Origin: Lepisosteus oculatus
Taxonomy: Eukaryota > Chordata > Actinopteri > Semionotiformes > Lepisosteidae
Assembly: GCF_040954835.1 (NCBI RefSeq)
Contig: NC_090709.1
Location: forward strand, 37,908,039-37,972,038
Direction: 5' to 3'
DNA length: 64,000 bases
Both the position numbers and the translations under genes were made by a program. Under the pieces are notes generated by a model. The model did not search any database and was not told the DNA's origin. It worked only from the letters and a program-made list of their open reading frames with translations. Shown here piece by piece: positions 3,265-55,422 of the stretch; positions within the stretch are counted from its first letter, which is position 1, and every line of letters starts with the position of its first letter.

Positions 3265-3311
3265 ATGTAAGATTTATTTCATGGGTGCACACGTGTAACT
3301 AAATCTTACAT
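3265..3311 (+). ncRNA. GUGCAC-loop hairpin, copy 1 (type I)
   Basis: ATGTAAGATTTA pairs without a gap with TAAATCTTACAT. Inside this, CATG pairs with CGTG through one G-U pair, closing the loop GGTGCACA. The stem is about 19 pairs with one mismatch and one bulged U. It lies downstream of E3. The outer stem differs from the type II hairpins but is fully complementary, so both arms have changed together. Confidence 0.6.
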
Positions 3312-3689
3312 TGACTGAAATCTTGAACTGAATTAAAGTTAAAAATGCAAAAACCTATGCTCCATTTAGTGTAAGGTGGACTTCATGATTTAGCCCAGTG
3401 AGGCTCTATGTTTCCAATTTCCTACACTAAAAGCAATGTTGCGAGGTTAAGTACAGAAAGCAGAGGGAGTGGAAGTGGTATGTATTCTCTTGTGAGAAGG
3501 GAGAGAGCAGTATGGAAACCTAGGCAGTAGTAAGCCAGTTTAAACAGGATCACATTTTTCTCTTGGCTCTTGCGTATTGACCTGTGACCATACAGGATAC
3601 TATGGTAGTAAACTATTCCTATTTTTACACCTTTTAGAACATTTGATTCCCTTGATTAGGGAATGTGAAGCTTAGCTTTACCAATGGCT

Positions 3690-3880
3690 TGTTCTGTATA
3701 TGTACAAGCTGTAATCTCCCTAATGGTAGAGAGCATGCTGTGGCTGGAAGGCTGAAATCAATTTTAAGTGTTAAAGCTCAAACCTTTCCCCTCTTATGGA
3801 GCTCCAATCAAGGCTGCTGCTGTTGGTACTGAAGATGGTTAGTGTGTTTGGTCTTGTACTGCTGTGGGACTTTTATTTTA
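3690..3880 (+). repeat. Array module R, copy 1
   Basis: The module holds CAAGCTGTAATCTCCCTAAT, then GGCTGGAAGG, then a stretch ending near TACTGAAGATGGTTAGTG. Copies lie at 7420-7640 (with a second short piece at 7727), 39735-39910, 46540-46750 and 52650-52860. It always comes before E4. I see no splice sites or open frame that define it. Confidence 0.55.
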
Positions 3881-4113
3881 TTTTTTTTGGAGTGGGGGGA
3901 CATTTTTATACAAAACGTACCACACCTCTTGGGGTGTGTGTTGATGCTTGCTTTTTTTTTAAAAAAAACAAAAAAACATTGTCCACCACTATTTGATGGG
4001 GTATGCAACTTTGCCAAATTTCTTTGTACTGTAAGCTTGGTACTGGTTTTCTGTAGAAGTGCTGGTACTTTTCATTAAGGTGTACATTGTGCTTATATAC
4101 CCTATGCCACATT

Positions 4114-4130
4114 GGGGGGGGGGGGGGGGG
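4114..4130. repeat. Poly-G tract
   Basis: A run of 17 G lies in block A. It is absent from the matching place in the second block, so it arose after the duplication or was lost there. A G-quadruplex is possible. Confidence 0.85.
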
Positions 4131-4261
4131 AGAGTCAATGGAATTGAGTTTTTTTTTTTTTCCATTGCTTTAGGAATGTTAAACTTGTGTAAACTGACTT
4201 GAAGATCTGAGTATTTGTGGGGAGGGAGAAGCTAAGGTGAAGAATTCTAGTCTCTTGCCTC

Positions 4262-4312
4262 AAGCTTGCAAGCTAATGTCAAGGAAGAGAAGCAAGGGTA
4301 TCTATTTTCTGG
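4262..4312 (+). ncRNA. Exon-like module E4, copy 1
   Basis: The core AGGAAGAGAAGCAAGGG ends at the donor TCTGGGTGAGCAGG (GT at 4313). Copies end at 40351, 47199, 53297 and 54608, each at GTGAG or GTAAG after a G. The conserved donor in five copies is the main evidence for an exon. The acceptor is unclear. Confidence 0.45.
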
Positions 4313-4877
4313 GTGAGCAGGGCAAGGATTTGTTTTGTTTTTTTTCCTTTTTCAACCAGTAAGGAGCCAGCAGTGAAGGTTAGGATTAGTGATCCATCAG
4401 GACTGGGGTGGAGTTGAGTCCATCTGTATGTTTTGAGATGGATGCACTGAATTTGAAACTGGATTTTTTGGATTCATGGTTTTTGTTTGGTTCTGCATGT
4501 TAATTCCAGTGAGCCGCTGACAACCAATAATGGATATTGCAAAAGGATCCAATTTCCCTGGATGTCTGCTGTGTTAAAGGAAGAATGTTGAGGAAGCAGA
4601 AGGCAGTGCCTATTTCAGCTATTGTCTGAATCTCTGACCTTGGCTGCTCTGTGATGGGCAGTTTGCTGGAAACGCTGGTCAGTAATCCAATCAGCCCAGC
4701 CCAGTATCTTCAATGCTGATCCAATTATTGCTCTTAACTCAAGTGCACTCTTGTGGCCAAGGTAAAGGGGAGTTTGAAGGTAAGTAGAAGGGAGGTGCAG
4801 GTCAAGATCTTTGTGAGGTTGGTCAACACTGGTGCTGATTGTTTAATTGGTTTTAATACAATGATTGAGTTCCCCAG

Positions 4878-4988
4878 TCCCTGGCAAGATGAATCTACAG
4901 TGTGGAGAAACAAGGTTGGTGAATCCTGTTCAGAGGGAGCTCACTGGCTGACTAAAAGGATACCAGCTTTGTGACTTGTTGTCCATTT
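4878..4988 (+). ncRNA. Exon-like module E1', second in unit A
   Basis: It opens after GAGTTCCCCAG and closes at GTGAGTATGG (4989). It shares AGCTCACTGGCTGACTAAAA with the other E1 copies. Four copies keep the CCCCAG or CGCAG acceptor (here, 45254, 47612 and 49186), although the pyrimidine tract before it is weak. Confidence 0.45.
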
Positions 4989-5041
4989 GTGAGTATGGAA
5001 GTCTTGTGCTTTGAACAGTGGGGAAAGTGAAGAGGTGTTGC

Positions 5042-5120
5042 AAGCTGTCCTTAGGCTTCCTGGATGCCAATGGATGTTGGAGTAGGTGGAAGGGTAGTGT
5101 CCACTGTCCCTGGAGCTGAG
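5042..5120 (+). ncRNA. Exon-like module E2', second in unit A
   Basis: Same core as the first E2, ending at GAGGTGGGTTTCAC (5121). The type II hairpin follows about 285 bases later in the presumed intron. Confidence 0.45.
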
Positions 5121-5404
5121 GTGGGTTTCACTCCCCCCCCCTTCAATTTTTCCTTAACCTACTCCAGATCTGTGACCCCTTAATTTTGTATACGTGTTAT
5201 CCTTTCTTCTGAAGGATGAAAAGTCCCTTTTGGCATAGTCCAAGTTAAGCTCTTGGATATCTTTGTCTGCAAATGGCATGGTTTTTAATGTGTTAAACCT
5301 TTTTGGCTTTTTCTGGGTTTGTTCCCTGCTTGGTTGGAGCTCTCCCACACTGTCATGCACTTGACTGGCTGTCATTCTGACTCAGACTGAATTACTGCAT
5401 TGTA

Positions 5405-5444
5405 TGTGATTTATTTCATGGGTGCACACATGTAAGTAAATTGC
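5405..5444 (+). ncRNA. GUGCAC-loop hairpin, copy 2 (type II)
   Basis: TGATTTATTTCATG faces CATGTAAGTAAATTG around the GGTGCACA loop. Changes on the 3' arm relative to copy 5 (G for A in AAGTAAAT, TTG for TCA) are absorbed as G-U pairs. It sits between E2' (donor 5121) and E3' (start 5800). Confidence 0.55.
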
Positions 5445-5799
5445 TTTTGATACACTGCAGTACAACAGTGACCCTGCACACCAGCAGCCTCCTCCACTGC
5501 AGACTCCTTGCTGGTTGAGGCTCTGAGGAGACGGCATGTCAGCCAGGTTCTCTTGATGGGTGTAAGCACAAGAACTGCTCTCTTTATAGGAGAGGAACTG
5601 CACTGGATCCTTTCCCTGTGGAAAGAGACCTGGACTGGGGTTTTTCTCTGCTCTCTACACTGTTTCCTTGTTGGGTTTGTCCTGGTTTGGTGCTACATTG
5701 AATATTTTGGAAGCTCATTACAAACCTGGATCTGGGGTTGAGCTTCCTTACTGTTTCTAACAAGTGCAGAGAATGGTCTAAATCTTTTCTCCATTTCAG

Positions 5800-5973
5800 G
5801 CTCTCTGCTGTCAGAAGGGTTGACCAGGGCTTGGGTCCATAAGGAAGACCTTTCATCACCAGGCATGTAGCACAGGTGGAGCTGGTACCTGGCATCTTTC
5901 TGTGAAGATCTGCTGGAGGTGTGGGGTGCTTGTTTCAAGACTGGAAGTCATATTTGGGGGTGAAGATAGTCAG
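5800..5973 (+). ncRNA. Exon-like module E3', second in unit A
   Basis: It opens after CTCCATTTCAG and closes at AGTCAGGTGAGAGG (donor at 5974), length 174. The copy at 54066-54240 opens after the same CTCCATTTCAG and closes at AGTCAGGTGAGTGAG, length 175. Both boundaries are canonical and conserved across about 48 kb while the reading frames are broken differently. This is the best-defined exon of the family. Confidence 0.6.
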
Positions 5974-6900
5974 GTGAGAGGATGAGATGAGTTTCCATCC
6001 AGGAGGAGAGACTTCATACATAAGGGTTTATTTGGTTACTTTCAAGTATATTGGGGTACATTGGTGCATACTATGTTCAATTGAGTACTGTGGGTACATT
6101 GTGTACATTTTGATTAATCTGTTACATTGTATATTTGAGTCTGTGATACATTTGGGTTCATTCTGGTGCATATGGTAATTGGATACATATTTGTTAAAAT
6201 GAGTGTTCTAGCTTGGCTTCAAGTTGTATTACACTGCTGTGGGAGATGAATTTTCCCTTTTTCTTTTCACAAACAACAAGTAATTCTTGGCATGTCCATG
6301 GGAGTTGGAACATTCTGTGCGGTACATCAAGAAACTCAACATTTTTCTCTTGGCTACTTTTACTTTTGAGAGTGTGACAACATGCAGTAGTCTGTTGTAC
6401 TTATCTGTGATGGAGTCTGTTAGCAGAACCTGTATGTTGCTCTGTACCCATATAGTGGTAGGAGATGGGAGCTCTCAAGGTGAATGGATACCTTAGGCTT
6501 GAATCTCTTGGTTATATATGCATTTTAAAACTGGTTTGGATCAAGTGTGTAGTACTGTGCTCCCTCCAAATAAGGACGTTTTCAGACATAAGACCTCTAT
6601 CCTAAAGTCTCTTGCTCACCAGTTTCCATGCAAATTCTTGTGACCAGAAAGTGCTTTTGTATTTAAGTTGTATATGCAAATGAATCATTGTCTGTACTGG
6701 TTAATATTTCTGTTTTACTTCAAGTATGTTTCAGATATCATACCTTTCTCTAGTCTTCCCAAACTGAACACATGGTTATTTGTTCCTCCACTCTTAAAAA
6801 AGTTACTTTATCTTTTGTTTGAGATAACCAATTGATACCTAATGGATAAGTAGTGGTGGGATAGTTCTCTATGGCTGATTGTAATGTCTTCTGATTAACA
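5974..6900. other. Spacer between unit A and promoter P2
   Basis: T-rich sequence with a short internal repeat of GTACATTG-like words at 6020-6180. Part of it (about 5850-6365) is missing from the second block. No gene, RNA or mobile element is recognised. Confidence 0.5.
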
Positions 6901-6904
6901 GATG

Positions 6905-7131
6905 AAGTGGTAAATGCTTGTTTAGTCATTGGAAGCAGTTGTGTTGAATTGGAAACAGTGGGGGTGTGGAGGTGGGACCTGATCACAAGTTGGGATTGGC
7001 TCCTGTTGATCTCCCTGAGGAGTTTTATAAGGCATCCCTGGAGCCAGTGTGTTCCCAGCTGCAGCAGGTGAAGGAGCTCCTGTGATTTGTGGTAGTTTTT
7101 GACTTTTAAAATGTTGGTAGTACTGTGGTAG
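6905..7131 (+). promoter_or_regulatory. Plus-strand promoter and first exon P2
   Basis: TTTAGTCATTGGAAGCAG, then GGGATTGGCTCC (inverted CCAAT), then GAGTTTTATAAGGC (TATA at 7023-7032). The likely start is near 7050. Donors are CAGCAGGTGAAG (7068) and GTAGGTAAGTG (7132). It is matched at 42300-42520 with the same TATA box and both donors. Confidence 0.65.
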
Positions 7132-8430
7132 GTAAGTGTACTGGCTTCTTGAGTTTTTAATCTAAATATTTCTAGGTTTGTTTGTAAGCCAGTGAAAATC
7201 AAGTGTTTTGTTTTCGTGATCTGTTAATCCTTTTACAGTGGTATATTAATAGGTTTGGAGTTTTGTGGTTTTGTTTCATTCCGTTTATTAGTATCCTGTA
7301 CAACAGTCAATACACAGGAGCTGTGGTGGTAAAAGTGTTAACTTGGGTAAGTGGTTGTTGAATTTTCAGAGGTGTTTCTAGTCATTGTGGACATGAGACT
7401 TGCTTTTATGAAGGGTTTGATCTGTACGTGTACAGGCTGTAATCTCTCTGTTCATAGAATGCATGGAGTGGCTGAAAGGTTTCATTGGTTGTGGCCTATC
7501 ACTAGGTTGAGTGGTATTTGTGCTTTTGAGTTGCAAGTATTCTGTATGTTTAAGCTCTAAAACCTTTTCAGTCTGGGCTGCAGCTGTTTGGTGCTGAACA
7601 TGATTAGTGCTTTGGTCTTTCTTACTACTGTGGATCTCGATCTTTTAGAACACATTTGTAGGCGTGTCTAGTCACTTTGCAATGTGGAGTTTAGTTTTAT
7701 AAGTGGTTTGATTTGGATTTTATACAAGCTGTAATCTTCCTGGTCTGACGGAAGCTTTTAATCCTTTTACAGTGGTCTATAGGAAAAATAGCTGGTTCTG
7801 CAGTAAATGTAGTACATGACATTTAGTGTTTTAATGACTTTTTTTTTAAATGTACTTTAGATGTGTATTCAATCACATGAAAAAGCACTGTAAATGGAAT
7901 TGTCAACAGCTTCTTTCTGGGTTATAGGGGAATGGAATAAGTGAAGCTAGAGAATGTTGGCTTTGTTTTACAAATGTTCTTGCTTTTGATACATGTTTTA
8001 ACCTGTTTCAGTCAGTATCCTGTCATCTGCTTGTAGCAAGAGCATCTGTATCTTGGATTAACAGTGCAAGGAATTTGGGTTTCCTTTATTCGGGCCAGTA
8101 AGAGGCCAATGTTTTAAGAATAGGCTCTGATCAGTCAAGGTTCAAGGTGGACTTGAGTCAATTTGTTTTGAGATGGATGCACTGAACTTTGTAAATTAAA
8201 CTTTGCTGGTGACAACCATGGCGTATTACAACAAGATCTTCCCTGGAAGTCTGCTGTGTCAATGGAGGAACTATAGCTGAAAGGTGAGTTCAGTAATTGC
8301 ATGACTGTCCATCACAGAGCTACCAAGGTCAGTTTGTAGGAGTGGCTATTGATCACTGCATGTGCTCCAGGTCTAAGAAGAGGTAACGAATTGGATGGAT
8401 AAAGCTGAGGTGATGCATCTGCTCACTCTT
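7132..8430 (+). ncRNA. Partial noncoding unit downstream of P2
   Basis: After the P2 first exon come two R-like pieces (7420-7640 and 7727-7760) and a diverged E4-like piece near 8010-8060 that lacks a donor. The array ends at about 8430, where the sequence turns into unrelated material. No E1, E2, hairpin or E3 is found after this promoter, so the unit appears cut off. Confidence 0.4.
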
Positions 8431-9470: not shown

Positions 9471-9473
9471 CAT

Positions 9474-11122: not shown

Positions 11123-11123
11123 A

Positions 11124-13830: not shown

Positions 13831-13834
13831 TAAA

Positions 13835-23513: not shown

Positions 23514-23515
23514 CT

Positions 23516-39373: not shown

Positions 39374-39420
39374 ATGTGAGATTTATTTCATGGGTGCACA
39401 CATGTAAATAAATCTAACAT
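39374..39420 (+). ncRNA. GUGCAC-loop hairpin, copy 3 (type I)
   Basis: AGATTTATTTCATG pairs fully with CATGTAAATAAATCT apart from one bulged U, around GGTGCACA. After one mismatch the outer ATGT pairs with ACAT. The 3' arm includes AATAAA. It lies downstream of E3. Confidence 0.6.
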
Positions 39421-41299: not shown

Positions 41300-41343
41300 A
41301 TGTGATTTTATTTCATGGGTGCACACATGTAAGTAAATCACAT
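41300..41343 (+). ncRNA. GUGCAC-loop hairpin, copy 4 (type II)
   Basis: The outer arm ATGTGATTT pairs perfectly with AAATCACAT. Compared with type I (ATGTAAGATTT with AAATCTTACAT), both arms differ yet match. One extra T lies in the 5' arm. It is placed 190 bases after E2' and 352 before E3'. Confidence 0.6.
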
Positions 41344-42299
41344 TGGATACAGTGCAGTACAACCGTGACTTGGCACACTGCAGACTCCTTACTGGTTGAG
41401 GCTCTGAGGAGATAGCATGTCAGCCAGGTTCTCTTGATGGGTGTCGGCACAGGAACTGCTCTCTTCAAGGGAGAGGAACTGCACTGGATCTTTTCCCTGT
41501 GGAAAGAGCCCTGGACTGGGGGGTTTTCTCTGCTCTCTACATTGTTTCCCTGTTAGCTTGTCCTGGGCAGGTGCTATACTGAACATTTTGCAAGTTCAGC
41601 GCGATCCTGGATTTGGGGTTGAGCTTCCTTAGTATTTCTGAAAAGTGCAGAGGACTTGGACTAAATCCTTCTCTTCCATTTCAGGGTCTCTGCTGTCAGA
41701 AGGGACGAGCAGGCCTTGGGTCCAGAAGGACTTAGAGTGTGACAACATGCAGGGGTGTCAGTTGTACTTATCTGTGATGGAGTCTAAGAGTGGAATCTGT
41801 TACTCTGTACCCATATAGTGGTAGGAGATGTGAGCTTAAGGCGAATGGACACCTCCTGCTTGAATCTTTTGGTTTTACATGCATTGTATCAGTTTAAAAC
41901 TGGTTTGAATCAAGTGGGTAGTGCTGTGCTTGCTCCAGATAAGGAATTTTTCAGACTTAAGACCTCTGCCTTAGTCTCTTGCTCAGCAGTTTCCATGCTA
42001 GTTCTTGGGACCATAAAGTGCTGCATGTAATTAAGTCATATGCAAAGAATTGTCTGTACTGGTTAATATTTCTGCTTTACTTCAAGTATGTTTCAGATAT
42101 CATACCTTTCTCTAGTCTTCCCAAGCTGAACACATGGTTAAGTAATTTTGTTCCTCCAGTCTTGTCTTATTTTAAATAAAGGTTAATTTCCTTTTTAGTT
42201 TGAGATAACTAATGGATTAATAGTGGTGGGAAAGTTCTCTATGGTTGATTTGTAATCCATTAATTATCCAAATCTCATCTGATTAACAGATGAGGTGGT

Positions 42300-42520
42300 A
42301 AGTGCTAGTTTAGTCATTGGAAGCAGTTGTGTTGAATTGGAAACAGTGGGGGTGTGGAGGTGGGACACTGAGCACAGGTTGGGATTGGCTCCTGTTAATC
42401 GCCCTGAGGAGTTTTATAAGGCAGCCCTGGAGCCAGTGTGTTCCCAGCTGCAGCAGGTGAAGACGCTCCTGTGATTTGTGGTGGTTTTTTACTTTTAAAA
42501 TGTTAGTATTACTGTGGTAG
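42300..42520 (+). promoter_or_regulatory. Plus-strand promoter and first exon P4
   Basis: GGGATTGGCTCC, then GAGTTTTATAAGGC (TATA 42411-42420), then CAGCAGGTGAAG and the donor GTGGTAGGTAAGAG (GT at 42521). It is nearly identical to P2. Confidence 0.65.
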
Positions 42521-44000
42521 GTAAGAGTAATAGCTTCTTTTGAGGTTTTAATTTTTTTCTAGGTTTTTTTTTTTTTGCAAGCCAGTGTAATCAGATTTAC
42601 TGCAGCCCTGAGCTTTATTGGATGAAAATCAAGTTTTGTTTTAGTGATCATTGATCCTTTTACATGGTGAATTAACTAATTGTATGGATAAAGCCGAGGT
42701 GATGCATCTGCTCAATTTGTTTTTTTTTTTTTTTTTATCGGCTCCAATTGTTAGGACTCACAGACTGTAAACCAATCATCCCACTGCCTGAAATTCCTGA
42801 CCCTAACCTATAACCTGCACCTTCAATGCTGACCTGATCATTGATCCTAACCCAATCAGTGCACCCATGTGGCCAAGGTAAAGGTGAGTTTCAAGTCAAA
42901 CTTTTTGTGCATTTGGTCAGCAGTGATGTGCTTCCCGGTCCCTGGCCAGCTGTATGCACAGTGTGGAGTGACAGGCCTGGAGAATCCTGTTTCGAGGAAG
43001 CTCACTGGCTGGCCGAAAATATGCTAGCTGTGTGACCTGTTGATGCCCTACCGTGAGTATAAAGTGCAGAACTTTAAAACGGGAGAGCGAAGACATGCTG
43101 CAAGCTGTCCTTACATTTCCTGGATGCCCATGTATCTTGGACCAGTTGCACTACCCAGAGCAGAGGCGAGTTTCACTCTTCTCCTGTCTTCCCTAATCCA
43201 AACCAAATTTGATGCTCTAACCATTTAGTATTGGTGAGTGAGCTTCTCTTTCAGATATCTTTCATGTTGCTTAGTCCGAATTGATCAAACGACCCCCTCA
43301 CTTGTAAGAATTTTACAATGGAGGAAAGGGTACTTTTGGTGTAGGCTTTGTGTTAAACTCTTGAACCTCATTGCAACATGCTATCCACTTAGAAATGAGG
43401 TGTAATTTTGGATTTGTCTTGTCTCTTTTGGGTGATGTTTGCTCCTTGATTGGGTGAGGCACTGACGTGCACTTGACTGGCTGTCATTCTAGCTCTCGAA
43501 GACTAAATTAGTGCTTTGTATGTGATTTATTTCATGGGTGCACACATGTAAATAAATCACTTTGGTTCAATTGTGACCTGATGAATCGGACTCCTGGCTG
43601 GTTACAGCTCTGAGGAGACAGTGTGTCAGCCAGGTTCTCTTGATGGGTGTTTGCACAGGAACTGCACTTGCTCCCCTGTGGCACGACAGTGGACTGGGGG
43701 GTTTCCTTTGTTTTCTGCAGGGTGTTGTCCTGTTGGTTTGACTTGGACCCTGTTGGTAGTGAAAATGCGGACTTGACTGTTTTCCTAGAAAGGTAGAGGA
43801 CTTGAGTTAAATCCTTCTCTCCATTTCAAGCCCTCTGCTGCCAGTAGGGATGAGAAGGCTTGTGCTCCTGAGGGAAGACCTTTCATCACCAGGAGTGGAG
43901 CGCAGATGGGGCCGGTCTCTTTCTATGAAGGTCTACTGGAGGAGTGGGGAGCTTGTTCCAAGTCTGAATGTCATTGATAACATCAGAGGATTCAGGTTTG
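42521..44000 (+). ncRNA. Noncoding unit after P4
   Basis: P4 is followed by a long T run (42720-42737), an E1' module ending at the donor CCGTGAGTATA (43053), an E2' whose donor has changed to GCGAGTTTCAC (43167), a type II hairpin (43522) and an E3' opening after CCATTTCAAG (43831). The E3' has no clear right donor. R and E4 are missing between promoter and E1'. It is a shorter, partly decayed unit. Confidence 0.4.
43522..43560 (+). ncRNA. GUGCAC-loop hairpin, copy 5 (type II)
   Basis: GTGATTTATTTCATG pairs without mismatch with CATGTAAATAAATCAC except for one bulged U: 15 pairs closing GGTGCACA. It is the cleanest short form. AATAAA lies in the 3' arm. Confidence 0.65.
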
Positions 44001-44064
44001 ACTACAATGTGTACACTAGCTACATGGGGAACATTTTCATTGGGTACAGTACATACACCTGGGT

Positions 44065-44591
44065 TCACGTAATAATAATAATTGCTTACACTTATATAGC
44101 GCTTTTCTGGACACTCCACTCAAAGCGCTTTACAGGTAATGGGGACTCCCCTCCACCACCACCAATGTGCAGCATCCACCTGGATGATGCGACGGCAGCC
44201 ATAGTGCGCCAGAACGCTCACCACACATCAGCTATCAGTGGGGAGGAGAGCAGAGTAATGTAGCCAATTCATAGAGGGGGATTATTAGGAGGCCATGATT
44301 AGTAAGGGCCAATTGGAAATTTGGCCAGGACACCGGGGTTACACCCCTGCACTTTTCGAGAAGCGCCCTGGGATTTTTTATGACCACAGAGAGTCAGGAC
44401 CTCGGTTTTACGTCTCATCCGAAGGACGGCGCCTGTTTACAGTATAGTGTCCCCGTCACTATACTGGGGCATTAGGACCCACATGGACCGCAGGGTGAGC
44501 GCCCCCTGCTGGCCCCACTAACACCTCTTCCAGCAGCAACCTTAGTTTTTCCCAGGCGGTCTCCCATCCAGGTACTGACCAGGCTCACGTA
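44065..44591 (-). mobile_element. 5S-rRNA-derived SINE (SINE3-like)
   Basis: On the minus strand it begins TGAGCCTGGTCAGTACCTGG, then ATGGGAGACCGCCTGGGAA. This is the internal-promoter part of 5S rRNA, lacking the first half. A GC-rich body follows (GGCCAGCAGGGGGCGC), then the 3' tail AAAGCGCTATATAAGTG and a TTA repeat. Both ends carry TCACGTA (44065-44071 and 44585-44591), a probable 7-base target duplication. It lies between a decayed E3' and the next E1. Confidence 0.85.
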
Positions 44592-45138
44592 CAATTGTGT
44601 AGACTGTTGTATGGGGTATATTTATGTGTACTGGGCAGATGGCTTTTGGCATGGGACATAGTGTTGTATGACAAACTCTTGGCTACTTCTAGTTTGTACT
44701 TGAAGTTGAAAGACCCTGTAATCAGGGTCAGAGATGCAGGACAATCTGAAAGCCAAGCATTCTTGAGTTTACTGCATGGAAAACTGAATGTTTTGAGAAT
44801 CTTTGATTTTGCAACTAATTTTAACTGTAGCAATCCGTTGGCCATCTTCAGTATTCAAGCCAGTGTTGTGATGCAAGATAGATATGTTGAAATACTTTTT
44901 TTTTTTTTTTACACTGTGTATTCCAATGAGCAGGTGACAGCTGTCAGAACGGGGGAGTAGAAAGCATTACTGGTGGTGAACTTGGGCTGCGCCGAGTAAA
45001 CAATGTGAGCTGAAGGTAAGCAAAGGAGAGATTCAGGTCAGTGTGAGGAGAGCTTTTAAAGTTGGGAGCAGCCTACACAGCACAACCTGGTCCCCTCTGT
45101 GTGGAGGATGGGAGTGGTTAGTTCTGTTTCTTTTACAG
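44592..45138. other. Array spacer
   Basis: Low-complexity T run at 44899-44917. The stretch from 44960 (GGTGAACTTGGGCTGCGCC) matches 48800-48960 and precedes an E1 acceptor in both places. Confidence 0.4.
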
Positions 45139-45356
45139 TTGGTGCACGTGGCAGTGGTTGAAGACAAGATGCTCCTAGTCTCAAGAGAAGAGTGTCTTGG
45201 TCTCTGGAATGTTTCTGTGATTTAGGGTGGAATGCTGTGATTTGTGCTCCCCAGTCCCTGTCCACCTGAATGCAAAGAGTGCTGATGGACGCCTTGTTTG
45301 GAGATGAGCTTCCATTGAATAGTATTGGCCGTCTGAAAGGATATCGGGAGTGTTCT
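45139..45356 (+). ncRNA. Exon-like module E1, third long copy
   Basis: It opens after GTTTCTTTTACAG and closes at TTCTGTGAGTATT (GT at 45357). It shares GGTGCTCCCCAGTCCCTG-type sequence inside, which in shorter copies serves as the acceptor. Confidence 0.45.
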
Positions 45357-46124
45357 GTGAGTATTAAACGCGTGGGAAGGTTGTGCAGAACATTGTCTAA
45401 TCATTGGTGAGTTTTGGCATTTTGCATCTTGTGACTGGTTCTCTACACTTTCCCAAATCAAAGATGACTGAAATATCAAACTATAGTGTTTGATTAAAAG
45501 CATCTTTATATGGAGTCAGGTGTGAGTGTCTTGCTAGCAAATTCCAAATGCAATGCCTTTTCACTTTTGTACTAGGCTTAGTTTTGGGATTCACTGGGCA
45601 AGTTTAGCTTCCTGTTGAACTGTGGGTTTCTTTATTGTAGGCTTTTGTTTTGATGTTTCTTGCTTAAGCAGTTGTAGCACCAGCAGTCTCCTCCTCTTGG
45701 AGACTCCTTGGAGATGTTTTCAAACCGTGAAATACCATGTCTGAGACCCAGTCAGATCAGTGAGGTCCTTACCACTAAAGAGTAGATTGGGGCAGCTGTG
45801 GGCTTGACACCACTTGAGCAGCTTTCTTTTCCGACTGCTGCTCTACACATCAGCCTTTTGATGGTTGTTCCCAGGAGCAGCTGAGCCACCTGGCTGATTG
45901 AGCCAAAGTTGACTTTGTTCCAGGTAAGAGGGGACTCTGATTATGTAGCCTGGAGGTGCTGGGTGTCTTTGTTGGTTTTTTAGCCTTAATGGTAAAGTGT
46001 CACTGTAGCATAAATACTGGTTAATCAGGGGACGGAAGTCAAATACTGAAAGTGTTGTGCAAGCACTGGGGAGGATTTGGCAAAATTGTTTATGGTATGA
46101 CTGGGAAATCAGAGAATTGTCAGT
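45357..46124. other. Array intron-like stretch
   Basis: It carries the E3-long homologous part near 45680-45930 (GGGGCAGCTGTGGGCTTGAC, GAGCCACCTGGCTG), matching 2880-3110 and 39000-39190. The E3 opening itself is not recognised. Confidence 0.4.
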
Positions 46125-46171
46125 ATGTAAGATTTATTTCATGGGTGCACACATGTAACTAAATCTTACAT
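46125..46171 (+). ncRNA. GUGCAC-loop hairpin, copy 6 (type I)
   Basis: ATGTAAGATTTA pairs fully with TAAATCTTACAT, and CATG with CATG, around GGTGCACA, with one T-C mismatch and one bulge. It is almost the same as copy 1 despite lying 43 kb away. Confidence 0.65.
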
Positions 46172-48155
46172 TGAAATTTTAGAAGTGAATTAAGTAAATT
46201 AAAGGGGGAACTAAGCAGAGTATGGTGTCTTCCTGATTACCCAGTGAGACTATTCTGTGAATGTCCAGCACAGTCCTGTCAGAGGTTTAGTGCACAAAGG
46301 GGAGTGTTTCCAGCTGATTAGAAGTGGTTGTGTACTGTGCCTTGTGAAGGAGAGAGCTACATGAAGACTGTTGGACTTTCTTATACTGGATGTGTACTTT
46401 AACCATGAGCACAAACTGTTATTGGTGTAAAACTGGCTGTGAAACTTGCTTAAGTGGTTCTGCTGATCTTCTAGAAAGCTTTTTTTAAAGGTGCTTCTAG
46501 TCATTGAGGAATATGAGGCTTAGTTTGACCATGGGTTAATCGGTATGTGTTCAAAGTATTCTCTCCATGATGGTCAAGTGCGTGATGCAGCTCAAAGACC
46601 TCAATCCACTTGGTGCCCTATCAATCAGTTTCGAGTACTGTGTGCTTTTGTTTCAATTGTTTAAAATGTTTAAGCTCTAAAGCCTTTTCACCTTGGTTAA
46701 GGCTGTAGCGGTTTGGTACTGAAGATGGGTAGTGTTTTGATCTCATACTGCTGTGGATCCTTGCGGTTTTGGAATTTTGTTACTTTTGCAAAATCAGAAG
46801 TGGCTTGTCTCAAATTGAGTTTAAGGCAAAAATTCTGCTGCACTAGGTATGCATTTTTAGGGTCTCTTTAAAAAGATTGAATTTCAATTACTATTTTATT
46901 TGGATATGCAGCTTTGCATAATCAGTTCTGTTTTTCAGTAGTGGTGGTTGGATTTTAATGATGGGTAAGTTGTGCTTGAATGTGCAGTACGTCTACATGG
47001 TGAACTACTTTAAATGGATTTGGTAACAATCATGTATCTTGGTTATAAGGCTGTTGGTTAAGCTAGAGGTTTTTAATTGGGTGTCTCAAATTTTCTACTT
47101 TTTTGCTTTTGCAACTGATTTGACTAGTTTTCATTTCTGGTTTCAGCCAGTATCCAAGCTAATCTCAAGGAAGCGAAGCAACAGCATCTAAGTCCAGGGT
47201 GAGAACTGTCCTGGAGTATTGCAACAAGATCCAGAACTGTCAATGTTAGTGGTGTCTGTGTCCATGATGCCATGCTGCATGATGGTCCAGCTCAGAAGAG
47301 AGGAGGCTAGCTTTGTCCCGAGTAAGGTGAGGTGATCCACCTGCTTCAAGTTCTCATCTACAAAAACTTCCAAGCCTCTGAATAAAGTGGAAATGGTGGT
47401 GGGTAAACCAATCATCCTACTGCCTGACGTTCTTGGGCTGTAACCAGCATCTTTGGTGTGGATATGCATTTGCTCTCGCCCTAATCTTTGCTCTTTTGAG
47501 GCCTAAGTACAGGTGGGTTTGAAGGTAAGTAGAGGAAGTGCAAGTGTAGCTGTTTTTCCTGAGATTGGTCAGCAGTGATGCAGATTTGTGATTTTGATTA
47601 TAGTTCAGTGCTTCGCAGTTCCTGGCCAGCTGAATGCACAGTGCAGTGACAGGCTTGGAGAACCCTGCTCAGAGGAAGCTCACTGGATACCAGCTGTGTG
47701 ACCGGTTGATGCCCATTAGTAAGTAATGAAGTCTGTGGTTTGAACAGTGGAAAGCAAAGAGGTGCTGCAAGCAGTCCTTGAAATTCCTGGATGCACATGG
47801 ATCTTGGAGCAGGTGCAAGGGTGGTGTAATGGAGGACATGTCCCTGGAGCAGAGGTGAGTTTCACTTTTCCTGTCTAATCGTATCCATTTCAAACTTGAT
47901 GCTATATAACCTTTTAGTATTTGCTTGTTAGAACTGTTTACTGAAGCCGAAAAGCTTCTTTTGGAGTAGGCTACATGTTAAGCTCTTGGATCTCTTCTGG
48001 TGTATAACATCACGCTTTAACATGCTGAACACTTAAACTGTTTCTAGAGGTGAAGCTTTTTGGGGCTTTCTTCTGGGTAACTTTTCCTCCCTGCTTGGTT
48101 GAGGCATTTGTATACTAATGTGCACTTGACTGGCTCTGTAAGACAATTACTGCTT
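46172..48155 (+). ncRNA. Array modules R, E4, E1', E2'
   Basis: R at 46540-46750; E4 with the core AGGAAGCGAAGCAACAGC and donor CAGGGTGAGAAC (GT at 47199); E1' opening after CTTCGCAG (47612) and ending at ATTAGTAAGTAAT (47719); E2' ending at GCAGAGGTGAGTTTCAC (47855). All three donors are usable. No promoter of the P type is seen directly upstream, so these may be internal exons of a longer transcript started at P4 or P3. Confidence 0.45.
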
Positions 48156-48205
48156 TGCATCGGATTTATTTAATGGGTGCACACATGTAAATTGGTTTCG
48201 ATGCA
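48156..48205 (+). ncRNA. GUGCAC-loop hairpin, copy 7 (type II, changed outer stem)
   Basis: The outer arm is TGCATCG pairing exactly with CGATGCA, unlike any other copy, while the loop GGTGCACA and the adjoining CATG are kept. The middle of the stem (GATTTATTTAATG against CATGTAAATTGGTTT) is weaker, with G-U pairs, bulges and a mismatch. Two-sided change at seven positions is strong support for RNA pairing. Confidence 0.6.
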
Positions 48206-49740
48206 CAGCAGTACAATAGTGATTTGGCACACCAACAGCCTCCTCCGTAGACTCCTGCTGGCAGTATCAGCCAGGTACTCGTGATGTGTTGGCACAGGAA
48301 TTGCTCTCCTCACAGGGGAGGAACTGCACTGGATCCCTCCCCTGTGGCAAGAGCCCTTGACTGGGGGTTTTCTCTTCGCTCTCTGCAGGGTGTTTTCCTG
48401 TTTTATCTTGGACAGATGCTGCACCATAAACATTTTGGAAGTTTAGTACAAAACTGGAGCTGGGAGTAATTGTTCTTACTGTTTCTAAGTGCAGAGGATC
48501 ATAACAGAATCTGTCTACTAGGTTATCTGCTGCCAGAAGGGTTGACTAGGCCTTTGCTCCCAGATGGATGACCTCTCATCACCAGGAGTGGAGTAAACTG
48601 AGTAATCTAATTATCCTACTGCCTGATTAGTTTACTCCTAACCCATCTTGCATTTTTAGTATAGATCATGTTCTGCTTAATCAGTTATCCTTATCTTTTT
48701 GGCTTCGATGTAAATGACTGTGGGGGGGTCTGTGTTTTTTTCTTTTTTTCCACAGGATGCAGTTTTCCCATAGCTGTCTTGGTGGAGAGCAAGGAGTGCT
48801 ACTGCTTGGGAAGTGGACTTGGGCTCCTCTCCATGAACAAGGGGAGTTGAAAGTAAGTAGAGGGGAGATGCAGGTCAGTGTGAGGGGCACTTTTAAAACT
48901 GCATCTGCATGGTGGTAGTGTGGAGGAGGAGAATGGACAGTCCTGTTTTGTCCTTGCAGTTGGTGCACTGAGAGGCAGCTGTCAGATGAGGACTGTCACT
49001 GGAGAAAGGATGCTTTTGAAGTTTTCAGCTCCTGGTCTCAAGAGAAGAGTGTTGGTATCTTGGTCAGTTATGTTCACAGAACCGCCTCTCTCAATGAGGC
49101 TAGACAACAGTGGTGCTGAGTGGTATGATTGACTCTGTAATATTGTTTGTGATTTAGAGTGGAATGCCATGATAGGTGCTCCCCAGTCCCTGCCCACCTG
49201 AATGCAGACAGTGCTGATGACGTCTTGTTTGGAGATGAGCTTCCATGGAACAGACTTGGCTGTCTGAATGGATATTGGGAGTGTGACCTGTGAGTATTGA
49301 AGTCCTGCAGGTTGAACACTAGAAAGCAAGGAGGGGTTTTAAGCTGCCCTTGGTGAATCTGCTGGGCACCTGTGGATGTTGGAACACATGCAAAGGTACA
49401 GTAGTCATGCAGGACACTGTCCCTACTGCAGTGGTGAGTTGTGGCCTTTTGCATCTTGTCTTTGATTTGGGAAAGTGTAGAGTTCAAGTTTCATTATACT
49501 TATATACAGGTATATGGTATAACGAAATGCTATTTGGCTAGCTCTTGGATGTTAAGCAGTACAAAACAATACTTTTGTATAAGAAAATAGGCAATGTGCA
49601 AGATCATACTTCAAGTATATGAAATAAAGGATAGAAAATTTTATGGAGTGAGCTTCTTGGCAAGTGAGGTAGATTTCAATGTGTGCGTTTTAGATTTGAT
49701 TGAGGGTTCAGCTCATGGGTGAGAGGCTGGAAGTTTAATG
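48206..49740 (+). ncRNA. Array modules E3', E1, E2
   Basis: A diverged E3' near 48515-48600 has no AG acceptor at the usual place. An E1 follows, opening after TTTTGTCCTTGCAG (48960) and ending at GACCTGTGAGTATT (49290). An E2 ends at CAGTGGTGAGTTGTG (49434). The rest is T-rich intron-like sequence up to the LINE insertion. Confidence 0.45.
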
Positions 49741-51560
49741 GTTGTGTAGTGCGTGGGTAAAAACTGTCTGGGCCCAAATACTCCGGTACTGTTTTCCAGA
49801 TGGTAGAGGCTCAAGCAGTCTTCTTGCTAGGGTGTGTGGGGTCTTTGCTTAGAGCTTTCCTCAAGCACTCTCCATCATAAATGACTTGGATGGGAGAGTA
49901 ACCCCAGTGATGGACTGGGCAGTTCTCACCACCCGCTGTAGGGCTTTGTGGTCCGCAATACTGCAGTTGCCATACTACACTGATGCAACCTATGTGCTTT
50001 CTGTAGTGCATCTGTAAATGTTGGTGAGAATCTGGAGACATATCTTAGCTGCCTTCAACCGTCTTGGGGAAATACAGGCTGTGTTGTACTTTCTTAATCA
50101 GACAGGTGGACGATGGATTAAGCACACACCCCAGGGGGACTTCTGTGTTCAGTTGGTGCTGGAGGTGCAGTTTCCAAGCTTGACAGCTGGAGGTCTGCCT
50201 GTTGGAAAGTCCCAAATCCCATTGCAGAGGGTGGTGTCGTGACCCAGTGCATTGAGTTTCTTGACTAGTTTCTGGAATGATGGTATTAAAAGCTGAGCTG
50301 AAGTAGATGAATAGTAATCCTGTGTATGTTTTCTTTTTATCCAGATGTGGATAAAAAGTGTTGCTGGCTTCAAACTGAGCATAAAAGGCATTGAGCTCAT
50401 TAGGCAGGGAGGCATCATGGACAGATGGTCTGCCTTTTTGTAGTCTGTGAGGGCCTGTATACCTTGCCACGTGTGCCTTGGGTCAATAGTGCTGAAGTGT
50501 TACTCCAGTTCCTGTTTGAGTGTGATTTTTGCATGTTTAATACCTTTCTTTAGATTGATACTGGCTGACTTCAGTTCTGATTTATTGCCCGATTGAATGT
50601 TGCAGACCTCTGTTCATCCATGGTTTCTGTTTAGGAAATGCTCTTATTACTTTTGTCACATAGCCAGCACATGTCTTGATGTAGCTAGTGACTGATGTAT
50701 ATTCCTGTATGTCGATACATACTGTGTGGATGCCTCTTTTAAAAACCTCAGTCAGTGCCTTCAAAACAGTCCTGCAGGAGTGATTCAGCTCCTTCAGGCC
50801 ACACTTTCACTGTCCTGACTGCTGGTTTCACTCACCTGTGCAGCTGTCTGTGTGTGGGGAGGAGAAATGGTGATTGTGGTCTGTTTCCACACTGGGGGAG
50901 GGGTATGGCCTTGTAAGCATTCTGTGCAATGTTGGTGTAAATGTGGTCCAGAGTGTTTTCTCCTCTCGTTGGGAAGGAGACTTGCCGATTGGTATTTCAG
51001 GAGAATGGGGTTGAGTTTGTAAGACTAAAGTCACCCAAAATGATAAAGGTTGTCGGGATGTGCAGATTCTTTGCCATTAGTCGGGGGTGGATGTAGATGG
51101 CAGTCATAAACGGTCTGAACAGTAAACTGCTACATCTGTTTTCGTGCAATATGCCAGGGACTTGTGCAATACAACTTTGTGTACTGTTTTGGTTTATTCT
51201 TTGTATGTTCTGGACTGTGAGTAACTCTACTTAGTGCACTTCTCACTGTACTGATTGTATTGTATCATTCATTACAATGCTGTTCACTTTAGCTGCTGTT
51301 GAACTGCAATTTCCCTCATGGGATCAAAATATCTACCTATAATAAGTTTTAAATTCCCTCAGCAGATAAAAGGGGTGTTATTTGATCATTAGAAATTCCA
51401 GAGTGGGTGAGCAGTGTTTCATGATGGAAGATGTTGCACCATGTGTTAATAAAAATGCGAACTCCCCCACCTCTGGATTTACCAGACTCTGTAGTTCTGT
51501 CCATGTTGAAGGCAGAAAACCCATCTAGGTGTATTGCTGAGTCTGTAATACTATGTTAGC
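49740..51560 (-). pseudogene. LINE (Rex1/CR1-like group) inserted in the array
   Basis: Read on the minus strand from the right: an endonuclease piece with GKSRGGGVRIFIN-type residues (51.46 kb); the second endonuclease part ending SDHN-like (TDHNHHFSSP, about 50.86 kb); VTSYI and FPKQKPWMN (50.65 kb); SLPNELNAFYAQFEASNTF and LLFIYFSSAFNTIIP (50.3 kb); and the C-terminal IYDGECLRKALSKDPTHPS (49.87 kb). It is frame-shifted in many places. It is split at 51115-51345 by a plus-strand LINE tail. It lies between an array E2 and the next hairpin. Confidence 0.85.
51115..51345 (+). mobile_element. 5'-truncated LINE 3' tail nested in the opposite-strand LINE
   Basis: CGTGCAATATGCCAGGGACT, then CTGGACTGTGAGTAACTCT and GAACTGCAATTTCCCTCATG, ending GGGATCAAAATATCTACC. 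It matches the tail of 31660-31905 in order. Its host LINE resumes on the minus strand at about 51360. Confidence 0.8.
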
Positions 51561-51858
51561 TAAGTTTTGGTGAAAACATGAGTCAAGAGTTGTAACTGAA
51601 ATTGAGAACTAGAGCTTGATTACTAAGGCTCCTGCCTCCTTTAGAACTAGGAAACGAGTCTTGCTAGCTTATACAAAATGTTTAAATGTCTTTTCAGTTT
51701 GAGGCTTAGTTTTTGTGATTTCTGGTGGGCAATTTAAGCATCCTTAAGCTTAATCCACACGATTAGTAGAGCTGTTGGTCTATTTCTTGGAAATGCTTAT
51801 TGGTCTTGGTTAAGCAGTGTCTCACTTCACTGGCTCTCTTTCTGGCTCTGAAAGCCTG
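51561..51858. other. Array intron-like stretch
   Basis: T-rich, with the usual lead-in to a type II hairpin (CACTGGCTCTCTTTCTGGC, 51828-51846). Confidence 0.4.
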
Positions 51859-51890
51859 AATTTATTTCATGGGTGCACTTTGAAGTAAAT
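51859..51890 (+). ncRNA. GUGCAC-loop hairpin, copy 8 (rearranged)
   Basis: AATTTATTTCA now pairs with TTGAAGTAAAT after the usual CACATG was replaced by TTTGAAG. The stem still forms (one G-U pair) around TGGGTGCACT. GGTGCAC is kept. The lead-in and downstream sequence are those of type II. Confidence 0.45.
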
Positions 51891-53685
51891 CTCTTTAGAT
51901 GCACTGCAGCACAAGAATGACTTGGCACACCAGCAGACTCCTGGCTGGTTACAGCTCTGAGGAGATGGCATGTCAGCCAGGTTCTCTTGATGGGTGTTGG
52001 CACAGGAACGGCACTTGAACCCTCCCCTGTGGACTGGGAGGTTTCCTCTTTGCTCTCTTCAGGGTGTTTTTGTTTGTTTTCTCTTGAACAAGGTTTGCTG
52101 TGAAAATGTTAAAAGTGGAAATGCTGGCTTGACTGTTTCTACAAGGTGCAGAGGATCAAGTCTAAATCTGCACCTGAGTTAATTACAGATGTGGTACGCT
52201 TTAGACTAGGATTGCAGCTGGGGTTCATTGTAAGGATTAAGATGCCTAAAACCAAAAGTTTAGCACTGAAAGTAATGCTGTCTGTTTTAGTGCAGAAAGG
52301 GGAGGGATGAGTTTCCAGCTGTCTGGAAGTGGATGTGTGCTGTGCTTTGTGAAAAGGGGGAGCTGCAATAATATTTATGCTTTTGTTAGAGGACTTTCTT
52401 CTTGTGGATGTTTACTTTTTTAAAACAATACTAACTGCTACATTAAGTTTTATTGTTCTGTGTATAAGTGTAGTACTGATGTATACTATACAAAATGGTG
52501 CATGGTTTTGCCCAGAGTATCTTGTACAGCAGGTCATATAAAGGAGATGTGACTGTAAAAGTGTCAACTTGTGCAAAGTGGTTGTCAAACCTGAACTTTG
52601 AGGAGTTTATATTCATTGGGGAATGCAAGACTTGGTTTGATCTGATGTGTGCAGGCTGTAATCACCCTGGTGGTAGAATGCATGAAGTGGCTGGAAGGTT
52701 TAAATCCATTGGTTGTGACCCATCACTAGGTTTTGAGTGCTGCTGGTGTGCTTTTGAGTTTGTTCTGAATGTTTAAGCTTTAAAACCCTTTCAGTCCAGG
52801 CTGCAGCCGTTTAGTACTGAACATGGTCAGTGTTTTGGTCTCGTATTCCTGTGGATCTCAAGATTATTGGGTTGCCCTGAATTTTTCTTTATGTAAAACC
52901 AAAAATTTTAATTTTGGTTAAGTCACATTTCTACAGCCCTAGGTATACATTTTAGTGTGCTTTAAAAAAGCCTGAATATCAACCACTATTTAATTGGGTG
53001 TAAAACATTTTGAGATTTTGACTTGTATGAAATCTGTACTGCCTTTTAATAGAAGATGGTTTTATTTAAAATGAGTTTTATTTCCATGTGTTTGGTCTAC
53101 ATGAATAAAAATGTTAATGGACTTGGTCATTCCCTTTTACCTTGGTTATACGATAGTGGAATCTAAGCTTGATGGTTTTAGATAAATTTCTTTCTCTATT
53201 TATTGCTTGTGTAACTGGTTTGAACAGTTAATTTTCATAGCCAGTCACCAATCTGTTAATGTCATGGAAGTAAAGTATGAGCATTTTATATGCTGGGTGA
53301 GACTTAGATTCTTTTGGATGCCTATGGATCTTGGAGCTGTTGCAAAGGAAGTCTAGGAGGACCTTGTTCCTGGAGCGATTGGTAAGTTTCACTTTCCAAT
53401 AACTTTCATTTCTCTAATCAAGTCTAAATCAAACACTTAATTTTGTCCTTGCTTGTAAGACGTTTTGTAAAAAGCTCCTTTTGGTTTGGTTAAGCTCTTG
53501 TTTATCTTCTGGCAGAGCACATTATGCTTTAATGTGCTAAACATCTAGAGTCATAGTGGTGTAGTTTTTCTTTGACTTTCTTCTGGGTAATATTTCCTCC
53601 CTGCTTGGTTGAGGTATTTGTATACTAATGTGCACTTGACTGGCTGTCATTCTGGCTCTGAAAGATGGAATCGGTGCTTTTGTAT
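51891..53685 (+). ncRNA. Array modules E3-like, R, E4, E2'
   Basis: A decayed E3-like piece near 52150, R at 52650-52860, E4 ending at GCTGGGTGAGAC (GT at 53297) and E2' ending at GATTGGTAAGTTTCAC (53382). E1' is missing between E4 and E2'. Stretches between modules are AT-rich without other features. Confidence 0.45.
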
Positions 53686-53725
53686 GTGATTTTATTTCAT
53701 GGGTGCACACATGTAAATAAATCAC
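53686..53725 (+). ncRNA. GUGCAC-loop hairpin, copy 9 (type II)
   Basis: GTGATTT and ATTTCATG pair with CATGTAAATAAATCAC around GGTGCACA, with one extra T in the 5' arm as in copy 4. It lies 304 bases after E2' and 341 before E3'. Confidence 0.6.
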
Positions 53726-54065
53726 TTAAATACCGAGCAGTACAATGGTGACTTGGCACACCAACTGCTCCCTTCAGTGATTTTTTTTTTTTTGCTGGTT
53801 ACAGCTCTGTGGAGACCACATGTCAGCCAGGTTCTCTTGATGGGTGTTGGCACAGGACCTGCTCTTCTCCCAGGGGAGGAACTGCACTAGATCTTGTGCC
53901 AAGAACCCTTGACTAGGGGGTTTTTCTTGGCTCTCTGCTGGGTGTTTTCTTGTTGGTTTGTCCTGGACAGGTGCTGCACTGTGTTCATGTTGGGAGTGGA
54001 AATGCTGGCTTGACTGTTTCTAAGAAGTGCAGAGGACCTGGTCTGAATCCTTCTCTCCATTTCAG

Positions 54066-54240
54066 GCTCTATGCTGCTAGAGCAGATGAGCAAGCTTGGG
54101 CTTCAGAGGGAGGTCCTTTCATCGCCCAGGAGTGGAGCACAGATGGGGCTGGTCTCTGGGGTCTTTCAGTGAAGGTCTGCTAGAGTGGTGTGCTTGTCTG
54201 AAGACCGCAAGTTAAAGGCAGCATCAGAGGATCCAGTCAG
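54066..54240 (+). ncRNA. Exon-like module E3', best-preserved copy
   Basis: It opens after CTCTCCATTTCAG and closes at CCAGTCAGGTGAGTGAG (GT at 54241), length 175. It matches 5800-5973 at both boundaries. Confidence 0.6.
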
Positions 54241-55356
54241 GTGAGTGAGGCAAGTTCTCATTTTGAGTACACTGGGTACATGGTGTTTCATTTGAGTACT
54301 TTGGATATATGTTGATTTGTTTAGGTACAGTTGTGGAGATTGCATGTCAAGTTAGATAATTGAGTATATTGGTTAGGCAGCTGTTGGCATGTGCATGGGA
54401 GTTGTATAGTACAAACAACTTTTTTTTCTTGCCTAAACTTTTTTACACTTTAAATGAACATGAAAGATCCTGTTATCAGAGGAATGTGGAAGAATCTAAA
54501 ACCCTGCATTTTTAATGAGGAATTGAATATTAGAGAATGTTAACTGTTTTAATTCTTGTCTTAAGCTAGCACACCTAGGAGGAGAAGCAAGTGGATTTAT
54601 GTCCTTGGTAAGTATTCAAGAACAATTTAGTTCCTCAAGGTTGAGGGAAGGGAGAGGTTTAACTGGCTGTTTTGGGGAACTTGTGTGGGAATGTTAAATG
54701 CTTTAAACAAGGTATTAGAAATGGACTTGAGTTCTGCACTCTGTTTTTGCTTTATCACATTTTAGGGTGGTTTTGTTGGTTTGTCCTGAAAAGGTAGTAC
54801 TGAACATTTATAGTAGTTTAGGTCAAACTGGGTGTTGGAAGTGGAAATGTAGGCTGGACTACTTCTGACTAGTGTTTTTTTTTTTTCTTCAGGTTCTTTG
54901 CTGTCAGGGGGATGACCAGGCCTTTGCTGCCAAGAGAAGACCTTCACCAGGACAGGAGCCCAGATGCAGCAGACTGGGTAGCAGGTTCTGTCTGCGAAGA
55001 TCTTGATGAATCTGTTCCCATCCCAGAAGCCAATAGGCACATCAGAGGATCATTAAAGCTGCTGTAGAAGTTTCTAATGACAGGCAAAAAATGAGGGGGG
55101 GGGGTTTGGGTTAATTGTGGGCTGGAAAGAGGTTCAGGTGCTGTTGATGGTCCAACAGGAGCTGTGAAGCTCTAAGTGAATCTCTGCACACCAGCCTTGT
55201 AATGGCTGTTAGGACCTTGGCTTGTAACTCCAGCACCTGAGCCACCTGGCAGGGAGGAGACTGACTTTTGGTGCAGGAACAGAGAAAGAGTTCCAAGTTT
55301 TGTAACTTGGTAGCTACTTTGCACATTCTTAGCCATTTTGAAAAGCGTTTGAGAGG
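54241..55356 (+). ncRNA. Array modules E4 and E3
   Basis: E4 core AGGAGGAGAAGCAAGTGG ends at CCTTGGTAAGTATT (GT at 54608). E3 opens after T(12)CTTCAG at 54893. A part homologous to 3020-3130 (GAGCCACCTGGCAGG) follows at about 55180-55270. A G run lies at 55095-55105. Confidence 0.45.
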
Positions 55357-55422
55357 CTAAGGTCAAGCAATGATTTATTTGCATGGGTGCACACATGTAG
55401 ATAAATCTTGCCTTGGCTGTAG
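55357..55422 (+). ncRNA. GUGCAC-loop hairpin, copy 10 (type I, longest stem)
   Basis: The inner stem GATTTAT...CATG pairs with CATG...ATAAATC. The outer arm GGTCAAGCAA then pairs with TTGCCTTGGCT through two G-U pairs and one bulge, and CTA pairs with TAG at the base. About 27 pairs in 66 bases make this the copy most like a microRNA precursor. It follows E3. Confidence 0.6.

Follow-up and report, generated by a model that had tools for sequence, protein, structure and literature searches.

The genome of the gar Lepisosteus oculatus carries a family of hairpins with a fixed eight-nucleotide loop. The family was examined from a 64,000-bp stretch of contig C14 (C14:37,908,039-37,972,038 of a 1.2 Gb assembly), here called the window. 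The placement, orientation and constancy of its copies leave little doubt that it is subtelomeric, telomere-facing and constrained. The best explanation found for it, which is advanced tentatively and with less than even confidence, is a predicted non-coding transcript, read telomere-ward, in which the hairpins would kiss one another through their loops.

Hairpin copies in the window and their genomic placement

Ten copies had been reported in the window by an earlier reading of the sequence (the original prediction), and their coordinates and plus-strand orientation are as claimed. The string GGTGCACA is present at nine of the ten loci, always on the plus strand, with one further, unrelated site at 34087; CATGGGTGCACA occurs at eight of the ten, AATGGGTGCACA at 48176 and CATGGGTGCACTTTG at the 51859 copy. 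Fold z-scores, computed on 87-nt windows, range from -2.84 to -4.19 for eight copies, and are -1.41 for the copy at 53686 and -0.29 for that at 51859. A fixed-loop hairpin, predicted for every locus, is thus found at nine of them and has degenerated at 51859. The copies are as follows, in window coordinates.

3261..3317, plus strand: copy 1, A-type, from alignment; loop 3284-3291; 3' CACGTG, giving U.G in the loop-closing helix; z -3.68
5393..5462, plus strand: copy 2, B-type; loop 5421-5428; z -2.86
39374..39420, plus strand: copy 3, A-type; loop 39393-39400; stem with a G.A mismatch; z -3.36
41289..41359, plus strand: copy 4, B-type, long form that includes outer helices; loop 41318-41325; z -4.10
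43522..43559, plus strand: copy 5, B-type, from alignment, 3' outer arm deleted; loop 43537-43544; z -2.95
46125..46171, plus strand: copy 6, A-type; loop 46144-46151; z -2.84
48148..48213, plus strand: copy 7, B-type variant TGCATCG/CGATGCA; loop 48176-48183; z -3.80
51851..51915, plus strand: copy 8, degenerate; GGGTGCAC retained at 51871, stem and loop lost; z -0.29, hairpin absent from the minimum-energy fold
53686..53725, plus strand: copy 9, B-type; loop 53702-53709; z -1.41
55361..55418, plus strand: copy 10, C-type, in the fetched arrays the type closest to the telomere; loop 55386-55393; z -4.19

An alignment of 110 telomere-ward copies was assembled from 39 copies of the fetched contig ends and the window (the 51859 copy omitted) and 71 copies picked for an exact core. 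The 8-nt GGUGCACA loop is closed by a G-C pair in the minimum-energy fold of 109 of the 110, and the one-base bulge and the G...A flanks of the loop hexamer hardly vary among the copies seen, 71 of the 110 having been chosen for an exact core. Core conservation within this set is biased by that choice, and flank-anchored counts were used instead.

No Rfam family reached its gathering score anywhere in the window, in agreement with the earlier impression that no known RNA family could be recognised, and two hairpins compared with Rfam at E-values up to 5 gave only matches far under threshold. A tRNA identity for the hairpins was also rejected. Some B-type hairpins (window 5432 and 41329; 12711 in the segment from C1 right) contain a perfect GTAAGT inside the 3' arm, which other copies do not have and which is probably not the function.

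When up to two mismatches were allowed, the core 21-mer matched the whole genome at 113 forward and 120 reverse places, and the reversed control at none. Among 100 listed places, all of them exact cores, 88 are no more than 300 kb away from a contig end, at which every one of the 88 points; the remaining 12 belong to a head-to-head pair of arrays on C14, the window included. The C-type 28-mer was found at 46 places in the genome, 45 exact and one with a mismatch, of which 38 are near the ends of 27 large contigs, six on small contigs and two on C14. The 44 C-type copies that have a contig end within 200 kb all point at it; their median distance from it is 19 kb, and the C-type copy mostly lies 8-34 kb from the contig end. 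Of the four C1 and C2 ends fetched, three have TTAGGG arrays beyond the hairpins (on C1, for instance, from 78,907,764), and the C2 left end reads N.

What had been taken for a local family of ten is, by this genome-wide search, part of a subtelomeric array facing the telomere. The original prediction had counted genome-wide scattering, of the kind typical of mobile elements, against itself; among the complete set of 46 C-type places and the 100 listed exact cores, the only copies away from contig ends are those of the C14 pair, and a scattered mobile element was rejected on these counts. That the hairpin is the end of a mobile element or a short palindromic transposon is scarcely credible: such an origin would account for the many genome copies, but the listed ones stand near contig ends, in one orientation and, where fetched, in collinear arrays.

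Constancy of the core between array classes

The fetched arrays are collinear and differ in class. Class I comprises the C1 and C2 ends, with shared blocks that are 92-97% identical and four hairpins ordered B, A, B, C telomere-ward; class II comprises the C14 arrays and the left end of C7; the C7 left array and the minus-strand array of C14 have seven intact hairpins apiece. Most alignments of class I against class II show 65-82% identity; one of 2.3 kb, for instance, has 73.6%. Many large contigs have class I at their ends, class II is found on C7, C9, C10, C12 and C14 and on several contigs of smaller size, and the list of C-type places contains a third array variant on C16 right, C19 left and C45.

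Subtelomeres usually diverge fast, and a stem-loop that stays unchanged at many chromosome ends amid drifting surroundings calls for a function. Searches were anchored on the flanks of the hairpin and excluded the hairpin itself, so that the copies were not chosen by their core; 40 of 46 candidates were scored for the C flank, 40 of 135 for the B flank and 40 of 48 for the A flank, with core checks for A and B limited to C1-C20. All 40 scored C-flank places adjoin a listed C-type core with at most one mismatch in 28, and those of other classes are only 74-82% identical to the query flank. The exact 21-mer follows the B flank in 24 of 26 places; one of the two exceptions is a single A-to-G change that gives U.G in the closing helix, and the other is partly degraded. 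For the A flank the core is exact in 22 of 24 places, and one exception is window copy 1, again an A-to-G change giving U.G. The flanks of the array classes differ by 15-26% while the core stays, and together with the folds these counts bear out the predicted constrained hairpin family with a fixed loop.

Direct comparison of the C1 right array with the window gave 26-31 identities in the 31-bp windows placed on hairpins, 11 of 15 reaching at least 30. The mean over 19,260 windows was 22.9/31, and 3.5% of them, hairpins included, reached 30. Other strongly conserved places include the exon-like blocks and, in the C1 right segment, stretches near 11,000 and 17,650.

Within the hairpin, the loop and the loop-proximal stem are the most constant part and the outer arms vary between subtypes. 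This distribution bears on the idea of an intronic microRNA-like precursor, one arm of which would be processed into small RNAs; the original prediction had alluded to microRNA precursors, with the smaller of which the stem overlaps in length. In nearly every listed copy, whichever of the three types it belongs to, the 3' arm indeed begins with ACAUGUA. A microRNA is nevertheless very improbable: the loop, just 8 nt long, lies within the most constant stretch, the 5' arms differ by subtype, and at the two hairpins compared the matches to Rfam microRNA families were far under their cut-offs.

Signals of a telomere-ward spliced transcript

The arrays are probably transcribed toward the telomere, as suggested by their strand bias and splice-site signals. 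The features of the window that bear on this are listed below, the right edge of the main array being approximate.

1..7640, plus strand: first, incomplete array copy; long pieces 80-88% identical to 36133-42590; strand bias shared with the main array
36940..57500, plus strand: main hairpin array, G+T-biased and CpG-poor; bias change point at 36940 (-0.04 to +0.18)
40843..40972, plus strand: exon-like block followed by a conserved GTRAGT donor (40973), with related blocks ending at 2300, 4989, 43053 and 47719
41685..41730, plus strand: beginning of the following exon-like block, preceded by an acceptor-like TTTCAG whose AG ends at 41684; CAG in 5/7 B-type units

An excess of G+T on one strand can be read as a trace of germline transcription. 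In all four arrays tested it sets in abruptly in the telomere-ward direction, with change points at 10,960 in C1 right, 36,940 in the C14 plus-strand array, 9,260 in the C14 minus-strand array and 3,911 in C2 right; the bias is -0.02 to -0.05 before the change point and +0.18 to +0.20 after it. Directly inward of the array start, at window 35800-36600, the strand bias is -0.16 to -0.18, as a divergent promoter would look. The arrays are CpG-poor (0.04-0.33 in 2.5-kb bins), and on C14 the sequence just inward is poor too. In class I, two ends have a CpG observed/expected ratio of 0.75 and 0.76 in the 500-bp bin that precedes the change point (at 10500-11000 of the C1 right segment and 3500-4000 of the C2 right segment), and the bins after it are CpG-poor; this CpG-richer bin at the class I array start is a candidate promoter.

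Acceptor-like motifs, enriched on the plus strand, number there 7 against 0.9 expected and 9 against 2.2 expected, and on the minus strand 1 against 1.1 and 3 against 1.9. Donor sites are retained in 3 of 11 cases on the plus strand and in 0 of 1 on the minus strand, one GTRAGT donor being kept in 12 of 16 aligned copies, and five of the seven aligned B-type units have an intact acceptor CAG 3' of the hairpin. AATAAA is above expectation on both strands. Because the G+T bias starts sharply, acceptor-like sites are enriched and a donor is conserved, a spliced telomere-ward non-coding transcript is proposed. The hairpin at 41289-41359 lies between the donor at 40973 and the acceptor at 41684. 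The hairpins probably sit inside introns of a plus-strand transcript; the term intronic, used in the original prediction, is credible but unproven. A protein-coding array was rejected: six-frame Pfam scans of 36001-45999 and 46001-55999, with 1-7640 left out, found no family over cut-off, and one match, to HEAT_ATR, had an E-value of 0.033 and 14.6 bits against a cut-off of 27.

The window array is one half of the C14 pair. The region C14:37,963,410-38,022,674, in a contig of 60.0 Mb, holds two subtelomeric arrays placed head to head and separated by CCCTAA repeats. A plus-strand array is followed by N from 37,978,539, then, in the sequence fetched from 37,996,039 onward, by CCCTAA repeats, and finally by a minus-strand array, with 37,986,039-37,996,038 and 38,000,039-38,012,000 lying outside the fetched sequence. 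The arrangement looks like two chromosome ends brought together head to head, by either an end-to-end fusion or an assembly join.

The insert between the two window arrays contains minisatellites, seen by self-alignment at 23502-25007, 26124-26615 and 27319-27622, with periods of about 60, 60-70 and 69 bases. Open reading frames at 18922-19389 and 31238-32023 resemble remnants of LINE reverse transcriptase, and an 80-aa frame at 8377-8619 has what we take to be a signal-peptide-like start. Inward of the hairpin array on C1 right (78,878,722-78,883,714) lies a satellite with a period of about 356 bases, and likewise at the left ends of C1 and C2.

Loop palindrome, selection and rival explanations

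The loop reads G-GUGCAC-A, that is, a self-complementary hexamer GUGCAC flanked by G and A. The same GUGCAC is the loop palindrome of the dimerisation initiation site (DIS) of HIV-1, where the flanking purines are needed for dimerisation (PMC7357161). A duplex of two gar loops has a computed energy of -10.7 kcal/mol, and the hexamer alone -7.9, loop geometry being ignored.

In the proposed mechanism, the hairpins would be a repeated structured element of a non-coding transcript unit near chromosome ends, read telomere-ward, and a B-type unit would consist of an exon-like block, a donor, an intron with the hairpin and an acceptor. The stem would present the 8-nt loop, and GUGCAC could then pair loop-to-loop with any other copy, either among the hairpins of the same RNA (four per class I array, seven intact per class II array fetched) or with RNAs of other ends. 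Such pairing would compact or multimerise the chromosome-end RNA. The loop would be fixed and the outer stem free because the loop must match all other copies, whereas the stem need only hold the loop. The evidence leans towards the hairpin acting as RNA; that it acts by loop-loop pairing is the preferred mechanism, though held with less than even confidence.

Selection on the RNA strand was sought in the substitutions of the stem. Single transitions in Watson-Crick pairs gave 28 G.T against 6 A.C, where flank rates predict 63% G.T (p=0.012), so the earlier remark that single changes are often G-U is upheld. The excess recurs at two other window sizes (p=0.041 and 0.034) and outside the selected core, where the ratio is 26:6 (p=0.020) and observed numbers against those expected from flank rates are 26/31.5 for G.T, 6/18.7 for A.C and 24/51.5 for transversions. 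These figures are modest evidence that selection may act on the telomere-ward RNA strand. Compensatory changes can also be found by eye, such as TGCATCG/CGATGCA against TGCATCT/AGATGCA with a G-U intermediate, or AA/TT gained in opposite arms; stem breaks occur in some copies as well (G.A in the 39374 type, G.G in L097, G.A in L060, L067 and L103).

A number of observations weigh against the transcript with kissing hairpins. The covariation of the outer stem, which the original prediction had taken as proof of RNA selection, was not significant in a phylogeny-aware test by tree simulation on 64 B-type copies, a test of low power owing to few events per column (paired cells 0.958 against a null of 0.927, p=0.12), though single compensations are real. 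In this test the best stem pair, 20-70, had p=0.02 uncorrected, with unpaired columns scoring equally high; stem breaks numbered 13 against 13.8 expected; pair 23-62 was paired below the null mean; and the single double change, in helix P2, had p=0.014 for that helix and 0.114 over all helices. A column-pair covariation test likewise gave no excess for stem pairs, unpaired column pairs scoring as high or higher. The G.T excess is modest, and one control window, the only one of six planned that fitted the alignment, gives 29:13. In 109 of 110 copies the plus strand folds more stably than the minus strand, but the flanks have the same tendency, and this non-discriminating difference was dropped as evidence. 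One window copy, at 51859, has lost the hairpin. As to transcription, G+T bias is found outside arrays too, the window insert having +0.13 to +0.17 at 15-20 kb, and it could come from replication direction instead; two class II arrays have no CpG peak at the change point (0.05 in both); GTRAGT on the plus strand is barely over expectation (11 against 8.1 and 25 against 18.5); and acceptor-like sites conserved between classes number 1 of 10 on the plus strand and 3 of 12 on the minus strand. As to the loop, a hexamer would be palindromic by chance in 1/64 loops, and the loop is centred on the symmetry axis, so that a DNA palindrome would look similar.

This last point is the starting point of another explanation, in which the near-palindrome CATGGGTGCACACATG with its A/T arms is bound as duplex DNA by a dimeric protein and organises subtelomeric chromatin or recombination, the hairpin being a by-product of symmetry. 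The centring of the site on the axis and its strict location and orientation at chromosome ends would suit such an element. It is held to be unlikely, for the symmetry reaches well past 16 bp and includes a one-base bulge, the G/A asymmetry beside the hexamer fixes one orientation, and A.C changes in the stem are rarer than G.T, this last with modest significance only.

The lack of significant covariation is also what would be seen if the hairpin had no function, subtelomeric repeats being homogenised by exchange between ends while template-switch mutation preserved the pairing of the inverted repeat. Hairpins can arise and persist through template switching (PMC8794818), the opposite-arm AA/TT insertion fits a templated event, and the high identity of the C1 and C2 ends fits homogenisation. 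Absence of function is nonetheless improbable, since loop and upper stem are unchanged between classes whose flanks are 15-26% apart, and template switching, which matches arms, would presumably neither fix a loop nor favour G.U over A.C.

A protein-bound stem-loop in a telomere-ward transcript, with the loop and upper stem as recognition site and no loop-loop pairing, is somewhat unlikely, although a constant loop and upper stem below which the outer stem varies are what it predicts. The nearly invariant one-base bulge and G...A flanks of the hexamer, in a set of which 71 of 110 copies were selected for an exact core, would fit it as well. It does not predict a perfect hexamer palindrome, and there is no candidate protein.

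Several known systems are close to the gar repeat. Telomeric repeat-containing RNA (TERRA) is transcribed from subtelomeric regions toward chromosome ends, and human TERRA has a class of CpG-island promoters near the repeat tract and a second class (PMC6468625). The gar arrays, known from DNA alone, resemble it in that orientation and strand bias point telomere-ward. They differ in their distance from the contig end (some 19 kb to the array start on C1 right), in being CpG-poor and in having splice-like signals and hairpins; the CpG-richer bin at the array start was found in two class I ends only, of those tested. The lncRNA-TARE of Plasmodium falciparum derives from homologous telomere-associated repeat loci at many ends, transcribed toward the telomere (abstract of PMC3218844), and is alike in being a family of repeat loci with a telomere-ward layout at many chromosome ends; the organism is unrelated, and that abstract describes no such hairpin. 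The gar repeat resembles both in layout and is filed as a member of neither.

At the level of the hairpin, the likeness is to the HIV-1 DIS, an apical loop with GUGCAC flanked by purines, and oskar and bicoid mRNAs likewise pair through palindromic or complementary six-base loops (PMC7357161). These fly elements differ in lying in mRNA 3'-UTRs and serving localisation, and the gar loop differs from the viral one in having 8 nt, in being chromosomal with several copies per array, and in that its dimerisation is predicted only. We take the viral loop to have one 5' purine more. Among the papers listed on hairpin lncRNAs and gar, gar subtelomeres and zebrafish TERRA, no title or abstract opening describes the repeat, subscription papers being mostly outside this scope, and a literature text search with three core strings returned no paper containing these letters.

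In its furthest form, which is speculative and quite unlikely as it stands, many chromosome ends would make spliced telomere-directed RNA with 4-7 GUGCAC kissing loops in its introns, gluing the RNAs of different ends to one another; were this true, the gar genome would encode in its sequence an RNA scaffold for telomere clustering. If the hairpin acts as RNA in any manner, it would offer a concrete handle on the RNA-RNA contacts of telomere-directed transcripts, and the family is a case for telling selection on RNA from the maintenance of hairpins by template switching.

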